Part shown: positions 22,878-61,977 of the stretch, one piece after another
Position numbering within the stretch: position 1 is the stretch's first letter
Layout: every line of letters begins with the position of its first letter
Assembly (NCBI RefSeq): GCF_024662215.1
Contig: NZ_CP096115.1
Location: 2,492,935-2,556,934 of the forward strand
Length of the DNA stretch: 64,000 bases
Reading direction: 5' to 3'
Origin: Methanoplanus endosymbiosus
GTDB lineage: Archaea; Halobacteriota; Methanomicrobia; Methanomicrobiales; Methanomicrobiaceae
Position numbers and translations under genes: made by a program
The notes under the pieces: model-generated
Database searches by the model: none
Seen by the model: the letters and a program-made list of their open reading frames with translations, nothing else
What the model was told of the DNA's origin: nothing

Positions 22878-24506
22878 TTAAAGATTGTTAATTTTTCCCA
22901 CAAAATACCATGAGATTCTGGCAGCATCTCCTGTATCGACATCTCCGTCATTGTTAAAATCTGCGGCCATGTTCTTTGATGTCAGTCCGGCAACCATATA
23001 TGCAACTTTAGATACATCGCCAATATCAACAACTCCGTTGCCATTGAAATCGCCTTTAACCCCAAAAAAACTGATAGTTCCGTTAATGCATTCAAGATTG
23101 TATTCTGCCATATTCGTATCAGTCCATGTTGCATTAAATGTTGATATCATGGATGAATCTCCGCTGTTTCCTCTTGGGACCACTGAGATGTCAAATAAGG
23201 CATTCAGATCTGTATCTGTCATTGAATTTGTATTGACAAGAATCAGATCCGCCCGCTCTTCTGTAAGGTTAAGTGTGACTGAAGATCCAAGAAATACTGT
23301 ATTGTTTGCCTTAACTTTATTAACCGTTATGACTGAAGAATCCCATTTTAATGAACATGAGACCTCCTTTGCATTAGTTATCCCGGAGACCATAACAGGA
23401 ATTACATATGTGGAGTTTAAAGGGATGCTGATATCCGGAATCACTAGTTGTGCTGATGTAAATCCGGTCGTAAATTTTTTGAATATATCTGTGAACTCAA
23501 AGTTTTCCTGGTCCAGTTGTGACCACTGGAATATTGCAGTACCCTCACTGCCATTGTTATCTCTGTTTATTGACCACATGCCGAGCATTGTGACCCAGTC
23601 TTTTGATTCGGCCCATTCTTCAACCTGATTTGCATTATCTATGGTAAATATTTCCTGGGCAGCATCATTCTGCCCTATCATTGGTGTCATACCCAGCGTT
23701 GCAGATACATTTCGTTCTTTTAGCTGGCTATAAGCTCCTTCAGTTGCTGAAATTGCAGCATCACCCATTTTTCCATGGACAGCTGCATCATAGTAATCCA
23801 TAACCATTAGATTTACAATGTCAATTTCGACGCCGTTTTCGGTAGCATTGTCAATTACATTAAGTCCATAGGCATCAAGTCCTGTCGGAGTTACAGGGAG
23901 GCAGAATCCGATTCTAAGTCCGGGATTATTATCCTGTAATCTTTTAATAGATATACTCCTTCTTCCTATGGAAGGCCTGTCACCAACTGCTGTCCCTTCA
24001 ATATCAAAATCAATCCATGTTGGATTGTATTTGTCAATTACCTGCTGGTATTTCGATGTCAGGGTATCAACATCGGTATTGTTTAACGCAATTTCAACTC
24101 CGCTTGCCCCGCCAAAGGATATTGCAACATCACCGCCTACTGAGCGGATATAATTTATTTTATCTACAAAGTGGTCTGAATCCATTCCAAGACTGGTATA
24201 TCCCCCCCATGTCGGATTGGCATTTCCGTCACTCACAATAAATGCCAGGGTATAATATTTCTGCCCGGTAGAGAGATATGCCTTCTTCAGGTCATAGTAA
24301 CCGCCGGCACTGGTACTCCAGAGTGTTGTGTCAATATAAGGTGCAAATACTTCCTTTGGCCATCCGGATTGTTCTGAAATATAACCAGACTCTGCTGCCC
24401 CTGATACTGTCATTGTGCTGCATGATATGAATAACAACATAATGATAAAAAATCCCGTAAATGAGGATTTTCTGGAGAATATCCTCCTATCCTTTCTTTT
24501 TTCCAT
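22878..24506 (-). CDS. Secreted GH18-family (chitinase-like) protein with cohesin-like and dockerin domains
   Basis: Protein of 542 aa. A signal peptide (res about 17-37) is followed by a TIM-barrel GH18 domain (about 45-345) with the catalytic DxDxE motif as WIDFDIEG near residue 168. A cohesin-like beta domain (about 350-480, from SAQLVIPDISIPLNSTYVIP) follows, then a type I dockerin at the C-terminus with two Ca-binding loops, GDFNGNGVVDIGD and ADFNNDGDVDTGD. GH18 enzymes cut chitin or peptidoglycan-like beta-1,4 glycans, or bind them when inactive. The dockerin is very similar to that of the DUF1566 protein at 53831-55198. Both a cohesin-like and a dockerin domain in one chain would allow self-assembly (inference). 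Confidence 0.85.
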   Translation of the reverse strand: MEKRKDRRIFSRKSSFTGFFIIMLLFISCSTMTVSGAAESGYISEQSGWPKEVFAPYIDTTLWSTSAGGYYDLKKAYLSTGQKYYTLAFIVSDGNANPTWGGYTSLGMDSDHFVDKINYIRSVGGDVAISFGGASGVEIALNNTDVDTLTSKYQQVIDKYNPTWIDFDIEGTAVGDRPSIGRRSISIKRLQDNNPGLRIGFCLPVTPTGLDAYGLNVIDNATENGVEIDIVNLMVMDYYDAAVHGKMGDAAISATEGAYSQLKERNVSATLGMTPMIGQNDAAQEIFTIDNANQVEEWAESKDWVTMLGMWSINRDNNGSEGTAIFQWSQLDQENFEFTDIFKKFTTGFTSAQLVIPDISIPLNSTYVIPVMVSGITNAKEVSCSLKWDSSVITVNKVKANNTVFLGSSVTLNLTEERADLILVNTNSMTDTDLNALFDISVVPRGNSGDSSMISTFNATWTDTNMAEYNLECINGTISFFGVKGDFNGNGVVDIGDVSKVAYMVAGLTSKNMAADFNNDGDVDTGDAARISWYFVGKINNL

Positions 24507-24689: not shown

Positions 24690-24900
24690 GTGAACTACCT
24701 CTGGGCTAAAGACCCAGAGGCTTCCTGCTTCATACCCCAAACCATTGTTCGTAAGTCCACAGGCCCTTCCCCTCGTCCCAAGGGTGTAAAAATATTATAT
24801 TCCAATTAGATTCTGTCTATCTAAAGCAAATTTCCTGATATTTATCGCGGCATTGATATCCCGGTCATGATGTATCCCACAATCCGGACAAATCCAGTCT
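24690..24900 (-). ncRNA. Probable omega-RNA of the TnpB element
   Basis: TnpB proteins use a guide RNA made from the 3' end of tnpB and the transposon right end. Here the minus-strand transcript past the tnpB stop (24795) would include the hairpin CCCAGAGG/CCTCTGGG with its 7-nt loop (24698-24720), ending near 24690 with TAGTTCA. The guide would come from the flanking DNA just below 24690. The boundaries are approximate. Confidence 0.5.
24698..24720. repeat. TnpB-element right-end hairpin
   Basis: CCTCTGGG (24698-24705), loop CTAAAGA, CCCAGAGG (24713-24720). The flanking GAACTA and CTTCCTGCTTC are common at the right end of IS1341-type elements. Confidence 0.75.
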
Positions 24901-25907
24901 CTATCAGATAAAGTCAAATCCCTGTTGTAATATCCACATTCACTACAGATTTTTGTAGATGGTTCAAATTGTCCAATCCGTAAGATAGTTTTACCTTGTT
25001 TTTGTGCTTTATATTCCAATTGAGTAACAAATGAACTCCATGATGCATCAGCAATATGTTGTGCCAGTTTATGATTTTTTAACATCCCTTCAACATTCAA
25101 AGTTTCCAGTGCAATTGCTTGGTTCTCGCATACTAATCTAAAAGAGAGTTTGTGCTGGAAATCGCTTCTTTGATTGTGAATTTTTTCATGAATTTTTGCT
25201 ACTGCATTTTTTGCTTTATTTCTGTTGTTAGAACCTTTTTGTTTTCTACTCAATCGTTTTTGCAACACTTTCAGTCGGAGAAGTGACTGCTTCAAATATC
25301 GGGGATTGTCAATCTTTTCCCCATTGGAAAGTATTGCAAAATCTTTGATACCTACATCAACACCCATGGTTGTATTTACATCAAAACATTGTGCAGGAGG
25401 TTGCTCCTGTCCATCATCTATCAGAATACTAATGAAAAATTTGCCCGTTGAGGTGACTGACACTGTTGCAGTTTTTTCAACTCCTTCATATTTCCTGTGT
25501 AATTTTGTTTTAACCCATCCAATTTTAGGTAATTTAATTTTATGAGTATCAAAATTCACAATATAATGTTGTGGAACTGAAAATGACTGCACTGGATTTT
25601 TTCGGGATTTGAATTTTGGAAATCCTTTCTTTTCCCGGAAGAAACGAGTAAATGCATTCTCAAGATTTAACAATGCACTCTGTATTGATTGCGAATTAAC
25701 ATCTTTCATCCAATCATGCTCTGATTTCAAATCAGGCAGCATTTTTTGTAATGCAAATCTCGAAATTGATTTTCCATCTGTTTCATAAGTTCGGATCTTA
25801 TTTTCCAGACCCCAATTGTAGATAAACCTACAGGCACCGAAATGCTGAAAGAACATTTTCTCCTGTTCTTTGTTAGGATAGATTCGGTATTTGTAGGCTC
25901 TCAACAT
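24795..25907 (-). CDS. tnpB: TnpB RNA-guided nuclease (IS1341-type OrfB)
   Basis: TnpB of 370 aa. The N-terminal helix-turn-helix-like start MLRAYKYRIYPNKEQE and FGACRFIYNWGLE are typical. The RuvC catalytic acids are all present: Asp184 (GVDVGIKD), Glu268 (ALETLNVEGM) and Asp350 (DRDINAAINI). A four-Cys zinc finger CSECG...CPDCG lies at 321-344. Nothing looks broken, so it is probably active as an RNA-guided DNA nuclease that maintains the element. No tnpA is nearby; movement would need a transposase elsewhere. Confidence 0.94.
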   Translation of the reverse strand: MLRAYKYRIYPNKEQEKMFFQHFGACRFIYNWGLENKIRTYETDGKSISRFALQKMLPDLKSEHDWMKDVNSQSIQSALLNLENAFTRFFREKKGFPKFKSRKNPVQSFSVPQHYIVNFDTHKIKLPKIGWVKTKLHRKYEGVEKTATVSVTSTGKFFISILIDDGQEQPPAQCFDVNTTMGVDVGIKDFAILSNGEKIDNPRYLKQSLLRLKVLQKRLSRKQKGSNNRNKAKNAVAKIHEKIHNQRSDFQHKLSFRLVCENQAIALETLNVEGMLKNHKLAQHIADASWSSFVTQLEYKAQKQGKTILRIGQFEPSTKICSECGYYNRDLTLSDRDWICPDCGIHHDRDINAAINIRKFALDRQNLIGI

Positions 25908-53830: not shown

Positions 53831-55198
53831 TTAATCCGTATCCCGCACGCAGAGGACGTAGTTATAATAACGCTCTCCTCCTTCACCCAGTGGGCCGTCC
53901 TCAACTTTTGTATCAAACCTGACAGCACCGGCACCGTGAGAGTCAGTACCACTGTTGCCTACCGCAGTTCCGAATGCGACATACCAGGCGTAGTAATATC
54001 CGGGGTCCTGTTTGTTGAAGTATGCACTGGTGCTTGTCCAGTAGTAGCCGTAGTCAGGATCGTAGTTTGTAGTTCCTGCCGGAAGTTCGGTTACTGTAAA
54101 GAAGTCTGTGTCAATGGCAGGACCCAGGTCTGCTGCATCAGCGGCACTTGGTGAATGTGTGTAATCAACGATGCTCTGCAGTTCCTTGACGTTTGGCAGA
54201 CGCCAGTCATCATATCCGGCAAGCGTCAGGTTATTGGCATAAGTCAGAGCGTTGTCCCAGTCCATGCCACTGCCGCTGTCTGCCTGCTGCCACATAAGTC
54301 CTGTTGCACTGTCTGTGATGGTGCCGTCTCCGTTGTCTGTGAAATCATTTACTCCGTATGAATCTCCGCGGACTGCTCTGACGTAGTTACCCATCCGTCC
54401 TGAAACTTTAGCCGGATAAGCTTTGATATGTCCTGTGCCGTGATTGACACCGAAAGCTGCATCTGATTTGCCCTGTTCTGTTGTGCCAACATAAGGCTCT
54501 GTCCAGTACTGCTCGTCCTTGCTGACACTTCCTGAGTCTGCCAGGTCAAAATATTCTGTGTCAAGATATGGCCATCCTTCTGAGAAATCGCTTATTGAGA
54601 AGAGTTCTTTTGTAGTGGGCATACGCCAGTCGTCATATCCGCCGAGTTCTAAGGATTCGCAGTAATCATATGCCTCTTCATAGTTCAGACCGGTATTTTC
54701 AGGTATCTTCTGCCAGGTCAGCCCTGTAAATTCGTCATATACTGTAAGTCCGTCATCACTGACTGTGTAATCCGGCTGGTTGCCTGAGAACTGTGCGTCC
54801 TGACCATAGAATGCCTCGCCTTCAGCGGGGCAGGTGATCTCTTCTTCATTGTTGTAGCAGTTCACCTGGCCTGTGTCAACAACCGGATATGATAATGCAG
54901 TCTCCGGCATTGTCATTTTTCCGACAAATACGTATGCAATTATTGCAGCATCACCAACGTCAACATAGCCATTTCCGTTGAAATCTGCACTCATATCTTC
55001 CGGTGTATTTCCGGCTACCATATACGCGACTTTTGATACGTCTCCAATGTCAACAGCATCATTGCCGTTGAAATCTCCCTGCACGTCTGCCCCTGAGACT
55101 GTCACTGAGAGTCCGGTAATTAAAAGCAGTGAAATCAGAAAGAATCTGATTGCTGTTATGCTGTTCCCTGCTCTCCTGTAACTTTTTTCATGTGTCAT
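53831..55198 (-). CDS. Secreted dockerin protein with two DUF1566 (Lcl_C) domains
   Basis: Protein of 455 aa. Signal peptide (FFLISLLLITGLSVTVSGA) then a type I dockerin with two Ca-binding loops (GDFNGNDAVDIGD and ADFNGNGYVDVGD). Two DUF1566/Lcl_C repeats follow; marks are TGLTWQK, GGYDDWRMPTTKELFSI and, in the second, TGLMWQQ, AGYDDWRLPNVKELQSIVDY. The body after residue 100 is nearly the same as that of 55231-56454, which has a lipoprotein anchor instead. The fold is C-type-lectin-like, so ligand binding rather than catalysis is likely. Confidence 0.85.
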   Translation of the reverse strand: MTHEKSYRRAGNSITAIRFFLISLLLITGLSVTVSGADVQGDFNGNDAVDIGDVSKVAYMVAGNTPEDMSADFNGNGYVDVGDAAIIAYVFVGKMTMPETALSYPVVDTGQVNCYNNEEEITCPAEGEAFYGQDAQFSGNQPDYTVSDDGLTVYDEFTGLTWQKIPENTGLNYEEAYDYCESLELGGYDDWRMPTTKELFSISDFSEGWPYLDTEYFDLADSGSVSKDEQYWTEPYVGTTEQGKSDAAFGVNHGTGHIKAYPAKVSGRMGNYVRAVRGDSYGVNDFTDNGDGTITDSATGLMWQQADSGSGMDWDNALTYANNLTLAGYDDWRLPNVKELQSIVDYTHSPSAADAADLGPAIDTDFFTVTELPAGTTNYDPDYGYYWTSTSAYFNKQDPGYYYAWYVAFGTAVGNSGTDSHGAGAVRFDTKVEDGPLGEGGERYYNYVLCVRDTD

Positions 55199-55230
55199 GT
55201 TTCACACCCCCACACGTATTATCTACCCGT

Positions 55231-56454
55231 TTAGGTGTCTCTTACGCAGAGGACGTAATTGTAATAACGTTCTCCGCCCTCGCCCAGTGGGCCGTCCTCA
55301 ACTTTTGTATCAAACCTGACAGCTCCTGCACCGTGGAAGTCATCTCCTTCCCCGCCAACCGCAGTTCCGATTGCCACATACCAGGCGTAGTAATATCCAG
55401 GGTCCTGTTTGTTGAAGTATGCACTGGTGCCTGTCCAGTAGTAGCCGTAGTCAGGATCGTAGTTTGTAGTTCCTGCCGGAAGTTCGGTTACTGTAAAGAG
55501 GTCTGTATCAATGGCAGGACCCAGGTCTGCTGCATCAGCGGCACTTGGTGATTTGGTATAATCAACAATGCTCTGTAGCTCTTTAACATTGGGCAGGCGC
55601 CAGTCATCATATCCGGCAAGCGTCAGATCTTCTGCATAGACCAGTGCATTGTCCCAGTCCATGCCACTGCCGTTGTCGGCCTGCTGCCACATAAGTCCGG
55701 TTGCACTGTCTGTGACTGTGCCGTCTCCGTTGTCTGTGAAGTCATTTACACCATATAAATCTCCGCGGACTGCTCTGATGTGGTTGCCCATGTGACCGGA
55801 GACCTTAGCCGGATATGCCTTTATATGTCCTGTACCGTGATTGACACCGAAAGCTGCATCTGTGCCGCCCTCTACTGTCGTGCCAACGTATGGTTCTGTC
55901 CAGTACTGCTCATCCTTGCTGACACTTCCTGTATCTGCCAGGTCAAAATATTCTGTATCAAGATAGGGCCATCCTTCAGAGAAGTCGCTTATGGAGAAGA
56001 GTTCTTTTGTAGTGGGCATACGCCAGTCGTCATATCCTCCAAGCTCAAGTGATTCACAGTAATCATATGCCTCTTCATAGTTCAGACCGGTATTTTCAGG
56101 CGTTCTCTGCCATGTCAGTCCTGTTACTTCGTCATATACTGTAAGGCCATCGTCGCTTACTGTGTATGCCGGCTGATTGTCTGAGAACTGTGCGTCCTGA
56201 CCATAGAATGCCTCGCCTTCAGCGGGGCAGTCTATCTCTTCTTCATTGTTGTAGCAGTTCACCTGGGCAGTGTCAACAACCGGATATGACAGTCCTGTTG
56301 CTGTGGCCGGTGTGGCTGTGCTCTCTGTAACCGGTGTGGGTGTCTCCTCTCCGGAAACTGCACCTGTATTATCTGTCTGAGATACGCATCCGGCAAAGAG
56401 GGCCATTATGGCCATTGCCGCAATGAGTGCAATTATTCCTTTATGATATTTCAT
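55231..56454 (-). CDS. DUF1566 (Lcl_C) lipoprotein, copy A
   Basis: Protein of 407 aa. Lipoprotein signal (MKYHKGIIALIAAMAIMALF with lipobox AGC), a Thr/Glu/Pro-rich stalk and two DUF1566 repeats (TGLTWQR, GGYDDWRMPTTKEL; TGLMWQQ, AGYDDWRLPNVKEL). The start is shared with three other copies almost to the base. A ribosome-binding AAGGAGCTG precedes the ATG. Confidence 0.88.
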   Translation of the reverse strand: MKYHKGIIALIAAMAIMALFAGCVSQTDNTGAVSGEETPTPVTESTATPATATGLSYPVVDTAQVNCYNNEEEIDCPAEGEAFYGQDAQFSDNQPAYTVSDDGLTVYDEVTGLTWQRTPENTGLNYEEAYDYCESLELGGYDDWRMPTTKELFSISDFSEGWPYLDTEYFDLADTGSVSKDEQYWTEPYVGTTVEGGTDAAFGVNHGTGHIKAYPAKVSGHMGNHIRAVRGDLYGVNDFTDNGDGTVTDSATGLMWQQADNGSGMDWDNALVYAEDLTLAGYDDWRLPNVKELQSIVDYTKSPSAADAADLGPAIDTDLFTVTELPAGTTNYDPDYGYYWTGTSAYFNKQDPGYYYAWYVAIGTAVGGEGDDFHGAGAVRFDTKVEDGPLGEGGERYYNYVLCVRDT

Positions 56455-56514
56455 AATTTTCAGCTCCTTATGGCTGTTATATAGCTAATTCTTTCATCAG
56501 AAGGGTGTAGAGAG

Positions 56515-56536
56515 TACCCGGAAGGGTTTCCGGGTA
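56515..56536. repeat. Hairpin between DUF1566 copies A and B
   Basis: TACCCGGAA (56515-56523) and TTCCGGGTA (56528-56536) form a 9-bp stem with a 4-nt loop, in the gap between two tandem genes. On the plus strand it is followed by TTTTCTCTTTT; on the minus strand no T-tract follows. It is probably a transcript-end structure. Confidence 0.45.
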
Positions 56537-56563
56537 TTTTCTCTTTTATTTCATCTGATAATT

Positions 56564-59854: not shown

Positions 59855-61729
59855 TTACTGTGTGGATAGATATGTCATCACTGCATCATACCGGTCATAT
59901 GTATGTTCGATAAGCTCACTTAGTGAGGCATCAAACTCCGCCGTGCTCTTCAGATTGGTATGCCCTTCTGTTTCTCCATCTGCACCGGTGACATAGGGAG
60001 TGATAAGCTCATGGTTAAACTGGTATTTCTCTTCCATTGCTTCCGGTTCAAAGGCGGTTGTGACGACTTCCTCAATGTCATTCAGGTACATCGCATGATA
60101 CACCGGGTCGTCCATCAGGTAACGGATAAGCGGCCAGGAATCGCCAACCTCATCAAGGCCAAGCGAGAGCGGTGATCCCTTACCTCCGCCACCTGCGTTC
60201 TGCATCATCATGCCTTCATCTCCTGCGTCATCTAAAGGCATTTCCATCATCCTCTGGCCACCTGCGTTCTGCATCATCATCTCCTCATTCGCTGTTGCTT
60301 CCATTGGCGGGGCCATCTGCTGACCGCCCATGGTTCTGCCTCCTCCTGCGGGAGGCATAGTCTCTCCACCTTCAATCAATTCAGGCGGCTGCATATCTCC
60401 TCCGAAGCCCGGGATTCCGGTGTTTGTCTGCCCGTCATCCGGCTGTTCCATCGCTTGTCTGCCGCCGGTACCTGCATTCTTTCCCGCAGAGATTGCCTCG
60501 TTGTTGTCCCAGGGGATCCAGGTAATTGCCCCGTCTGATGGATCGGTGTAGAGATAGAAGTTCTTGCACGAGGTTCCATAGGAGTCCCAGTTCTGGATAA
60601 CCGTATTCACTGCGAGCCATTTGACAAATCCTTCAGCATCGAATACTGCTTCAAGATTTTCTCTCCATTCTTCGGGGTCTGTTGTCCGTGTGTCATCGTT
60701 GAGAATGGTATACAATGCTTCAACATCACTCCAGTCCTCCTCATCTTCGTTTGTCTTCTTCTCGAAAGATTCAGCGTCAAAGGTACCTTCTGCAAATGTG
60801 GCTCCTGTTCCCTCAGGTTTGTACACATTTCCGGAATCATCGGTAAATGCAGTCTCAATGAGGGTATCTTCAACACTCTCGATCATCGTGTACAGGCCAA
60901 AGTATACAGGTCCTTCTCCGTAATCGACATATACGCGGTAAAACGCTGTATCCGGGGCAGCAACTCCTGCATCATTGAATATTTCGGGGGCAATCTTATC
61001 CCTCATCAGTGAGCTGTCACCAAATGCGCTCTTCAGGTTAAGTTCGTCAAATCCATAGAACCGCTGGTTTTTGATGTCAGGATTTTCATCTTCGAATTTA
61101 TCAAAATTCAGTTTCAGTGAGATCTTGTATGAGCCGCTTGTCCATGTATTTCCAAGGGTCGACTGACCTTTAAACCGTATGCCGACATCAGTCCATTCTT
61201 TATCGTCAAAGGTGATGCCTGCCGGAACAGTGACCGGATCAAAATCAAAGCTTTCTTCCCGGTTTCCTCCTGCTCCTCCTCCCATTGCTCTGTCGTTAAG
61301 GGCGATATCTGCCGGAGCGGTTGCCTGATTAAAGTCCGGGTTTTCTATCTGGTTTCCTCCGCCACCCATTGCTCTGGTCTGGTCTGTTGTTGATCCTCCG
61401 AATTCCCCGAATTCTGCTGCCATGTCATCAAGCATGGTCTGCCAGTTTTCCGGCGACAGGGTAATGGTTATTTCATTTACCTTGTCATCGGGAAATACAA
61501 CGGAATAGTTTGGTTCTGCGTCGTTTCCGTGCGTTTCTTCTGTCCAGTCTGCTGACCGGGTCGTTCCGGTGTCAACCGCGGATGTTTCATCGGTGTCCCC
61601 GACAGCTGTGCATCCGCATGCAAGCAGGCATAACACCATGCAGGTGCAAGCCGCCAAAACGGCTAATAACGGTTTTTTCCTGCCGTTTTTATCCTTTGAT
61701 CTGTTGTTTTTCAGTATTGGTATCTTCAT
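59855..61729 (-). CDS. CotH-kinase-family lipoprotein with Met/Gly-rich insert
   Basis: Protein of 624 aa. Signal and lipobox (VLCLLACGCTAVG) then a CotH-like domain (from about 75: YSVVFPDDKVNEITITLSPE, KISLKLNFDKF, GFDELNLKSAFGDSSLMRDK, ITWIPWDNNEAIS). CotH proteins phosphorylate secreted proteins in bacteria. Two unusual parts are seen: a duplicated about 35-residue Gly-rich segment (AMGGGGNQIENPDFNQ; AMGGGAGGNREESFDF), and a Met/Gln/Gly-rich insert with MMMQNAGG repeated (about 470-515). Whether it is active is unknown. Confidence 0.82.
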   Translation of the reverse strand: MKIPILKNNRSKDKNGRKKPLLAVLAACTCMVLCLLACGCTAVGDTDETSAVDTGTTRSADWTEETHGNDAEPNYSVVFPDDKVNEITITLSPENWQTMLDDMAAEFGEFGGSTTDQTRAMGGGGNQIENPDFNQATAPADIALNDRAMGGGAGGNREESFDFDPVTVPAGITFDDKEWTDVGIRFKGQSTLGNTWTSGSYKISLKLNFDKFEDENPDIKNQRFYGFDELNLKSAFGDSSLMRDKIAPEIFNDAGVAAPDTAFYRVYVDYGEGPVYFGLYTMIESVEDTLIETAFTDDSGNVYKPEGTGATFAEGTFDAESFEKKTNEDEEDWSDVEALYTILNDDTRTTDPEEWRENLEAVFDAEGFVKWLAVNTVIQNWDSYGTSCKNFYLYTDPSDGAITWIPWDNNEAISAGKNAGTGGRQAMEQPDDGQTNTGIPGFGGDMQPPELIEGGETMPPAGGGRTMGGQQMAPPMEATANEEMMMQNAGGQRMMEMPLDDAGDEGMMMQNAGGGGKGSPLSLGLDEVGDSWPLIRYLMDDPVYHAMYLNDIEEVVTTAFEPEAMEEKYQFNHELITPYVTGADGETEGHTNLKSTAEFDASLSELIEHTYDRYDAVMTYLSTQ

Positions 61730-61743
61730 TGTGTATTCCTCTG

Positions 61744-61899
61744 TTATTCCGTCATCAATGTTCCGGCGGTAACCGGTTCAGGAGTTATCTCCTCTCTGAA
61801 AACAGCACCTGATTTATCTGTCTGCGATACAGATCCGGCAAAGAGGGCCATGATGACCATCGGCGCAATCAGTGCAATAATTCCTTTATGATATTTCAT
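61744..61899 (-). pseudogene. Beheaded copy of the DUF1566 lipoprotein (N-terminus only)
   Basis: A 51-codon frame starting MKYHKGIIALIAPMVIMALF, matching the other copies up to the stalk (GAVFREEITPEPVT), then stop TAA at 61744. The lipobox Cys is changed to Ser (FAGSVSQT), so it cannot be lipidated, and no DUF1566 domain remains. It lies between cotH and the four-helix gene. Confidence 0.75.
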
Positions 61900-61977
61900 C
61901 TGTTTCATCTCCGTATAGATCTGTTATATTGTCAATGTTTCAGTAATTTTCGTGGACATTAATTGATTTAGTTGCCT

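Follow-up and report, generated by a model that had tools for sequence, protein, structure and literature searches.

Two tandem Lcl_C surface proteins of Methanoplanus endosymbiosus with a shared body and a probable exchange of N-terminal address modules

Introduction

Two neighboring genes in the archaeon Methanoplanus endosymbiosus raise the question of how one protein body came to stand behind two unrelated N-termini, and where each protein would then reside. D1 (53831-55198) is a predicted secreted dockerin and Lcl_C protein of 455 residues, while L2 (55231-56454) is a predicted lipoprotein paralog of 407 residues with the same body. Both are intact open reading frames, supported by Pfam and, for L2, by alignment with D1. 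They lie in the window, the 64,000-nucleotide stretch of contig NZ_CP096115.1 (positions 2,492,935 to 2,556,934) that was analyzed here; the genes of the array around them and the chitinase gene at 22878-24506 are on its minus strand. A preliminary description, made from the sequence, read the pair as a domain swap that sends one body to the membrane and the other to a cohesin-based complex.

The Lcl_C Gene Array

Lcl_C domains (PF07603, DUF1566) are encoded by an array of five genes in the order L6, L4, L3, L2, and D1, and the 3.16-Mb genome has no Lcl_C domain beyond the ten in these five proteins. Between L6 and L4 come a gene for a small membrane protein and then a CotH-family gene. Four of the five proteins are lipoproteins with an MKYHK...FAGC front, and D1 is the sole non-lipoprotein. 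L6 (62487-63857) and L4 (58288-59592) are Lcl_C lipoproteins by Pfam and module comparison: L6 has the front type that the sister genome joins to a D1/L2 body, and L4 combines an L2/D1-like front with an L6-like body. L3 (56564-58129), identified by Pfam, is a lipoprotein of 521 residues with a C-terminal extension. The CotH-kinase-family lipoprotein within the array (59855-61729; CotH E 5e-65) has the lipobox LLACGC.

Directly upstream of the CotH gene, sequence comparison identifies a remnant of the start of a sixth Lcl_C lipoprotein (61767-61919), which has lost its lipobox Cys and whose frame stops early. The L4 and L6 bodies contain an EF-hand-like insert (DTNGDGEILAED, DNNVDGSITADD) that is missing from D1, L2, and L3. 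A 15-bp stem-loop at 56509-56542, between L3 and L2, is a possible transcript border.

One Body and a Sharp Joint

The D1 body (53834-54892) and the L2 body (55234-56289) each contain two Lcl_C domains, delimited by Pfam matches together with the joint at 54892 in D1 and module comparison in L2. Lcl_C scores 168.5 bits in D1 (E 7.8e-50, two stretches) and 164 bits in L2, against a cut-off of 34.9. From SYPVVDT to the last codons the two bodies can be aligned gap-free, at 88.4% DNA identity over 350 codons. Their description as almost the same still leaves room for 122 base differences, which speak against a very recent copy. With 85 of these differences in third codon positions, the duplication is not very recent and both copies are constrained. 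The corresponding rates are dN 0.053, dS 0.462, and dN/dS 0.115, and the substitution pattern shows both bodies to be under strong purifying selection.

At the level of an abstract, the literature ties DUF1566 to diversity-generating retroelements, whose targets would differ non-synonymously with an adenine bias and lie near a reverse transcriptase. This candidate was rejected for the D1/L2 pair on the third-position excess and on the lack of an RVT_1 match within the window.

The N-termini are unrelated. As the preliminary description had stated, D1 has a signal peptide and dockerin, and L2 has the common lipobox front; its lipobox is ALFAGC. DNA alignment places the putative crossover precisely, with a 20-bp identical block starting at 54892 in D1 and 56289 in L2. 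Only 9 of 30 bases match upstream of this joint, and a forced alignment of the N-terminal regions gives about 41% identity, which is background. The dockerin lies within the same reading frame as the body rather than on a different transcript, and the edge of similarity is abrupt rather than gradual. L2 lies upstream of D1 across a gap of 32 bp, which makes a shared transcript, and thus co-transcription of the two genes, likely. No leftover lipobox DNA was found inside D1, and no repeats were found at its joint apart from the two dockerin loops.

The Two Address Modules

The putative D1 signal peptide (residues 1-36; 55091-55198), read from the sequence, consists of a basic n-region and the h-region RFFLISLLLITGLSVTVSG and contains no lipobox Cys. 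It is followed by a type I dockerin (residues 38-95; 54914-55087), recognized by homology and loop positions, with the two calcium-binding loops DFNGNDAVDIGD and DFNGNGYVDVGD. The sequence at the joint shows a linker, TMPETAL (54893-54913), that leads from the dockerin to the body. The corresponding part of L2 is a lipobox N-terminus and linker (residues 1-55; 56290-56454), whose signal peptide with its lipobox Cys, MKYHKGIIALIAAMAIMALFAGC, was likewise read from the sequence.

About 20 other dockerins of the genome match that of D1 at 56-77% identity (best E 8e-25). In isolation the D1 module scores 20.1 bits, just below the Pfam Dockerin_1 cut-off of 22.9, and 17 bits in the genome scan; its pairwise homology to members that pass the cut-off is clear and weighs more than this shortfall. 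Its calcium loops are complete in both repeats, with ligands at positions 1, 3, 5, 9, and 12. Loop positions 10 and 11 are where the specificity of clostridial dockerins is set. In the class to which D1 is compared, these positions are IG in loop 1 in 20 of 20 cases and VG, IG, or TG in loop 2. D1 has IG and VG, and these shared positions place its dockerin in the main class of the genome.

The D1 dockerin is N-terminal, whereas the other dockerins of the genome are C-terminal, save one internal case near 2305415. A donor of the signal peptide and dockerin piece was not found in the genome, where the best DNA match reaches about 79% over 146 bases and none of the dockerin DNA matches has a signal peptide like that of D1. 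A small signal-plus-dockerin donor in the sister genome was considered and rejected, as the short open reading frames there resemble C-terminal fragments.

Mosaic History of the Array

Further mosaics are found within the same gene family, in line with the recombination that the preliminary description had proposed to look for. When the genes are split by L2 residues into address (1-55), front module (56-116), and body (117-407), the best partner differs between the three parts. L2, L3, and L4 have 91-94% DNA identity in their addresses and bodies that are 50-57% identical. The N-terminus of D1 is at background relative to L2 and its body is 88% identical. The L4 front module is 85-86% like those of L2 and D1, and the L4 body is 80% like that of L6. 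These module comparisons show that address, 60-residue front module, and main body have, as far as sequence can tell, separate histories.

The locus is also present in the sister genome (G024), where its flanks are 87-95% identical, but it holds a single Lcl_C gene (L090 7349-8587). This gene is L6-type up to TGLTWQR and D1/L2-type from there to its end, followed by a few bases of the D1 downstream flank, as expected of the product of a crossover deletion that joined L6 to L2 or D1. Its fusion of an L6-type front to a D1/L2-type body indicates that crossing over within the Lcl_C family is recurrent. In the body, sites matching D1 and sites matching L2 are clustered, forming fewer runs than expected (36 against 52, p 0.0006), and the gene agrees with D1 at 74 sites and with L2 at 39. 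The whole array is collapsed in this genome to one gene with an L6 front and a D1 body, and the CotH and other genes are lost.

The Methanogenium marinum locus contains a CotH gene and three Lcl_C lipoproteins, of types L3, L4, and D1/L2. The D1/L2-type gene carries another lipobox front. Its body shows no clustering of D1-like and L2-like sites, and it is equidistant from the two genes, agreeing with D1 at 51 sites and with L2 at 50.

Lcl_C proteins are uncommon among related archaea: 4 of 232 class genomes contain the domain, as do 13 of 393 sampled from the phylum. At the inspected loci, most full two-domain archaeal Lcl_C proteins have a lipobox, and some have a signal peptide or membrane segment; no dockerin was found on these proteins when their sequences were checked for the calcium-loop pattern. 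The dockerin form was found in one genome only, and none of the papers searched names DUF1566 together with dockerin.

Cohesin-Like Modules in the Genome

The protein encoded at 22878-24506 is a secreted chitinase with a cohesin-like module (23061-23456) and a C-terminal type I dockerin (22911-23057; Pfam E 3.2e-6 and genome scan), and it is a candidate docking partner of D1. A cohesin had been suspected in this protein, and the suspicion is borne out by its predicted cohesin fold. The AlphaFold2 model of its tail has a mean pLDDT of 84; the 50 best Foldseek matches to this model are all cohesins or cohesin complexes, and the Archaeoglobus cohesin 2xdh matches it with a TM-score of 0.83 by target length. 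Pfam Cohesin gives no match in the protein at E<10, hence the term cohesin-like. The remainder of the protein is a chitinase related to 2dsk (E 6e-39).

About 20 dockerins of the D1 class are present in the genome, and nine of them, all on exported proteins, directly follow a cohesin-like module of about 130 residues. The PDB matches of a profile of the nine modules (A2) are nearly all cohesins, with a best E of 0.0005. Pfam Cohesin matches three of the nine related modules, and the class was assigned by profile and predicted fold. The D1 dockerin thus has at least nine candidate cohesin partners in the genome, all equally good. Up to about three cohesin matches occur per protein; in a cellulosome, a set of cellulases accompanies a scaffoldin that bears many cohesins. 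On the evidence of sequence and modeled fold, a cohesin docking network is plausible.

Several other proteins of this kind were observed. Chitinase, cohesin-like module, and dockerin are combined in two proteins, 22878-24506 and G000:C1:603241-604878; a methanogen is not expected to live on chitin. A 289-residue protein with a PGF-CTERM-like tail (L037 1879-2748) contains a cohesin-like module, and the neighboring 1957-residue protein (L037 3119-8992) contains several, along with a second, different type of dockerin (SISDAQRIAQYMVD). A giant repeat protein, a 9331-residue open frame down to G000:C1 1093966, has a C-terminal membrane segment with two cohesin-like modules close to it and is a possible anchoring scaffold. 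An IS605 OrfB/TnpB-family transposase gene (24795-25907) adjoins the chitinase gene at 22878-24506.

Fold of the Lcl_C Body

The AlphaFold2 model of D1 has a mean pLDDT of 65, with values above 90 in the blocks of residues 141-200, and is confident for much of the first Lcl_C domain; the dockerin, which lacks alignment depth, is left unfolded. The best structural match of the body is the C-terminal domain of the Legionella protein Lcl (8q4e; Z 10.8, rmsd 3.2 over 118 residues, 24% identity, first domain only), and the model also matches other C-type-lectin-like folds. With the Lcl_C alignment as query, a PDB search by sequence alone gave no match, and NCBIfam gives weak matches to surface adhesins, far below cut-off. 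The D1/L2 body is probably a carbohydrate-binding, C-type-lectin-like adhesin, and a role in binding glycans or surfaces is a reasonable inference from the model.

Legionella Lcl is a trimer that binds sulphated glycosaminoglycans (PMC11162425). Its C-terminal domain (DUF1566/PF07603) shares the Pfam family and C-type-lectin-like fold with D1 and L2, and Lcl is a carbohydrate binder displayed at the surface. Unlike Lcl, D1 and L2 have two Lcl_C domains, lack a collagen-like stalk, and would be attached by lipobox or dockerin.

Discussion

D1 and L2 are probably tandem duplicates of one surface-protein gene whose 5′ address module was exchanged, so that D1 has a signal peptide and full dockerin where its paralogs carry a lipobox. 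The domain swap proposed in the preliminary description is supported by the sharp boundary, the single fused reading frame, and the other mosaics of the family. Since the donor of the D1 front was not found, the swap could have been an insertion or have taken several steps instead of one crossover. L2, like L3, L4, and L6, would be held by a lipid anchor to the outside of the membrane. D1 would be secreted, and its N-terminal dockerin would tether it to the cohesins of exported partners, for example the chitinase at 22878-24506. The Lcl_C body would probably bind glycans or another surface, and the same binding head would be offered both at the membrane and on an extracellular network.

The D1 dockerin might instead be vestigial or a calcium domain that does not bind cohesin, in which case D1 would simply be secreted, or retained through its body, and the only change made by the swap would be between membrane anchoring and release. 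Such a dockerin would suit the score just short of the Pfam cut-off and the unusual N-terminal site, but it is unlikely: both D1 loops keep all calcium-ligand and class-specific positions, many C-terminal dockerins, nine of which adjoin cohesin modules, match this one at 71-77% identity, and N-terminal dockerins are mentioned in parts of the literature on other systems. That no swap occurred is highly improbable. In that case gene conversion alone would keep the bodies alike while the N-termini diverged gradually over a long time; the sister gene does have conversion-like runs. However, similarity breaks off within a few bases, and the D1 front is homologous to an unrelated family, the dockerins, and two fronts from unrelated families largely refute gradual divergence.

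Which of the two genes is derived is a separate matter. A D1-type body may have been copied onto an L3/L4 lipobox front, making L2 the derived gene and the D1 front the older one. The close identity of the L2 front, though not its body, with L3 and L4 favors this order, as does the better agreement of the sister gene with D1. It is still somewhat unlikely, given that D1 and L2 are equally distant from M. marinum and that its D1/L2-type gene, the sister gene, and the Methanosarcina-type relatives all have lipoboxes and no dockerin. From these same lipoboxes, the dockerin is most simply read as a gain on the side of the window once the M. marinum gene had split off. The sister genome is uninformative on the age of the dockerin, as its deletion would have removed the dockerin form. 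Replacement of both N-termini may reconcile the two orders of events.

As it has no cohesin, D1 would be an end unit of any cohesin network. A bolder proposal, which is quite unlikely as it stands, is that exported proteins with both cohesin and dockerin chain head to tail, that D1 caps these chains with its lectin-like head, and that L2 is the membrane twin with the same ligand. The chain ends and the cell surface would then bind the same ligand.

Archaeal cohesin-dockerin linkage is already known: Archaeoglobus fulgidus and ANME archaea (PMC9012536) have, as here, exported type I-like cohesin and dockerin proteins outside cellulose degradation. In ANME archaea, a passage of PMC9012536 places dockerins on exported substrate-binding proteins of ABC transporters; this cargo differs from D1, and the passage describes no adjacent lipoprotein twin. 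In D1, unlike these non-cellulosomal systems, the dockerin replaces the lipobox of a paralog and is N-terminal on an Lcl_C protein. The Lcl_C lipoproteins of M. marinum and Methanosarcina-type archaea (L091, L101, L153) share the two-domain body at no more than 86% protein identity and, unlike D1, all have a lipobox and no dockerin. The component domains, and modular re-addressing as a kind, are rated as known, and the variant seen in D1 and L2 as new; it is a variant rather than a new kind because archaeal cohesin-dockerin linkage has precedent, as do the N-terminal dockerins noted in partial accounts of other systems.

D1 and L2 form a clean natural pair, one selected body behind two different addresses, and so offer a way to test what archaeal cohesin-dockerin linkage does where cellulose is not being degraded. 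Both this genome and its sister show methanogen arrays of tandem surface-protein genes recombining at the borders of modules, and such reshuffling would alter the expected destination of a protein, here through predicted docking.

The pairing of Lcl_C and dockerin also occurs elsewhere, in a different order. In the planctomycete CA13 (L106 2797-8834), two overlapping reading frames encode CotH, PKD, and Lcl_C, then Lcl_C, PKD, and Dockerin_1, and may be one frame-broken gene. In contrast to D1, this locus is bacterial and encodes large multidomain proteins with the dockerin C-terminal to Lcl_C. Its combination of CotH and Lcl_C echoes the CotH/Lcl_C neighborhood of the window.
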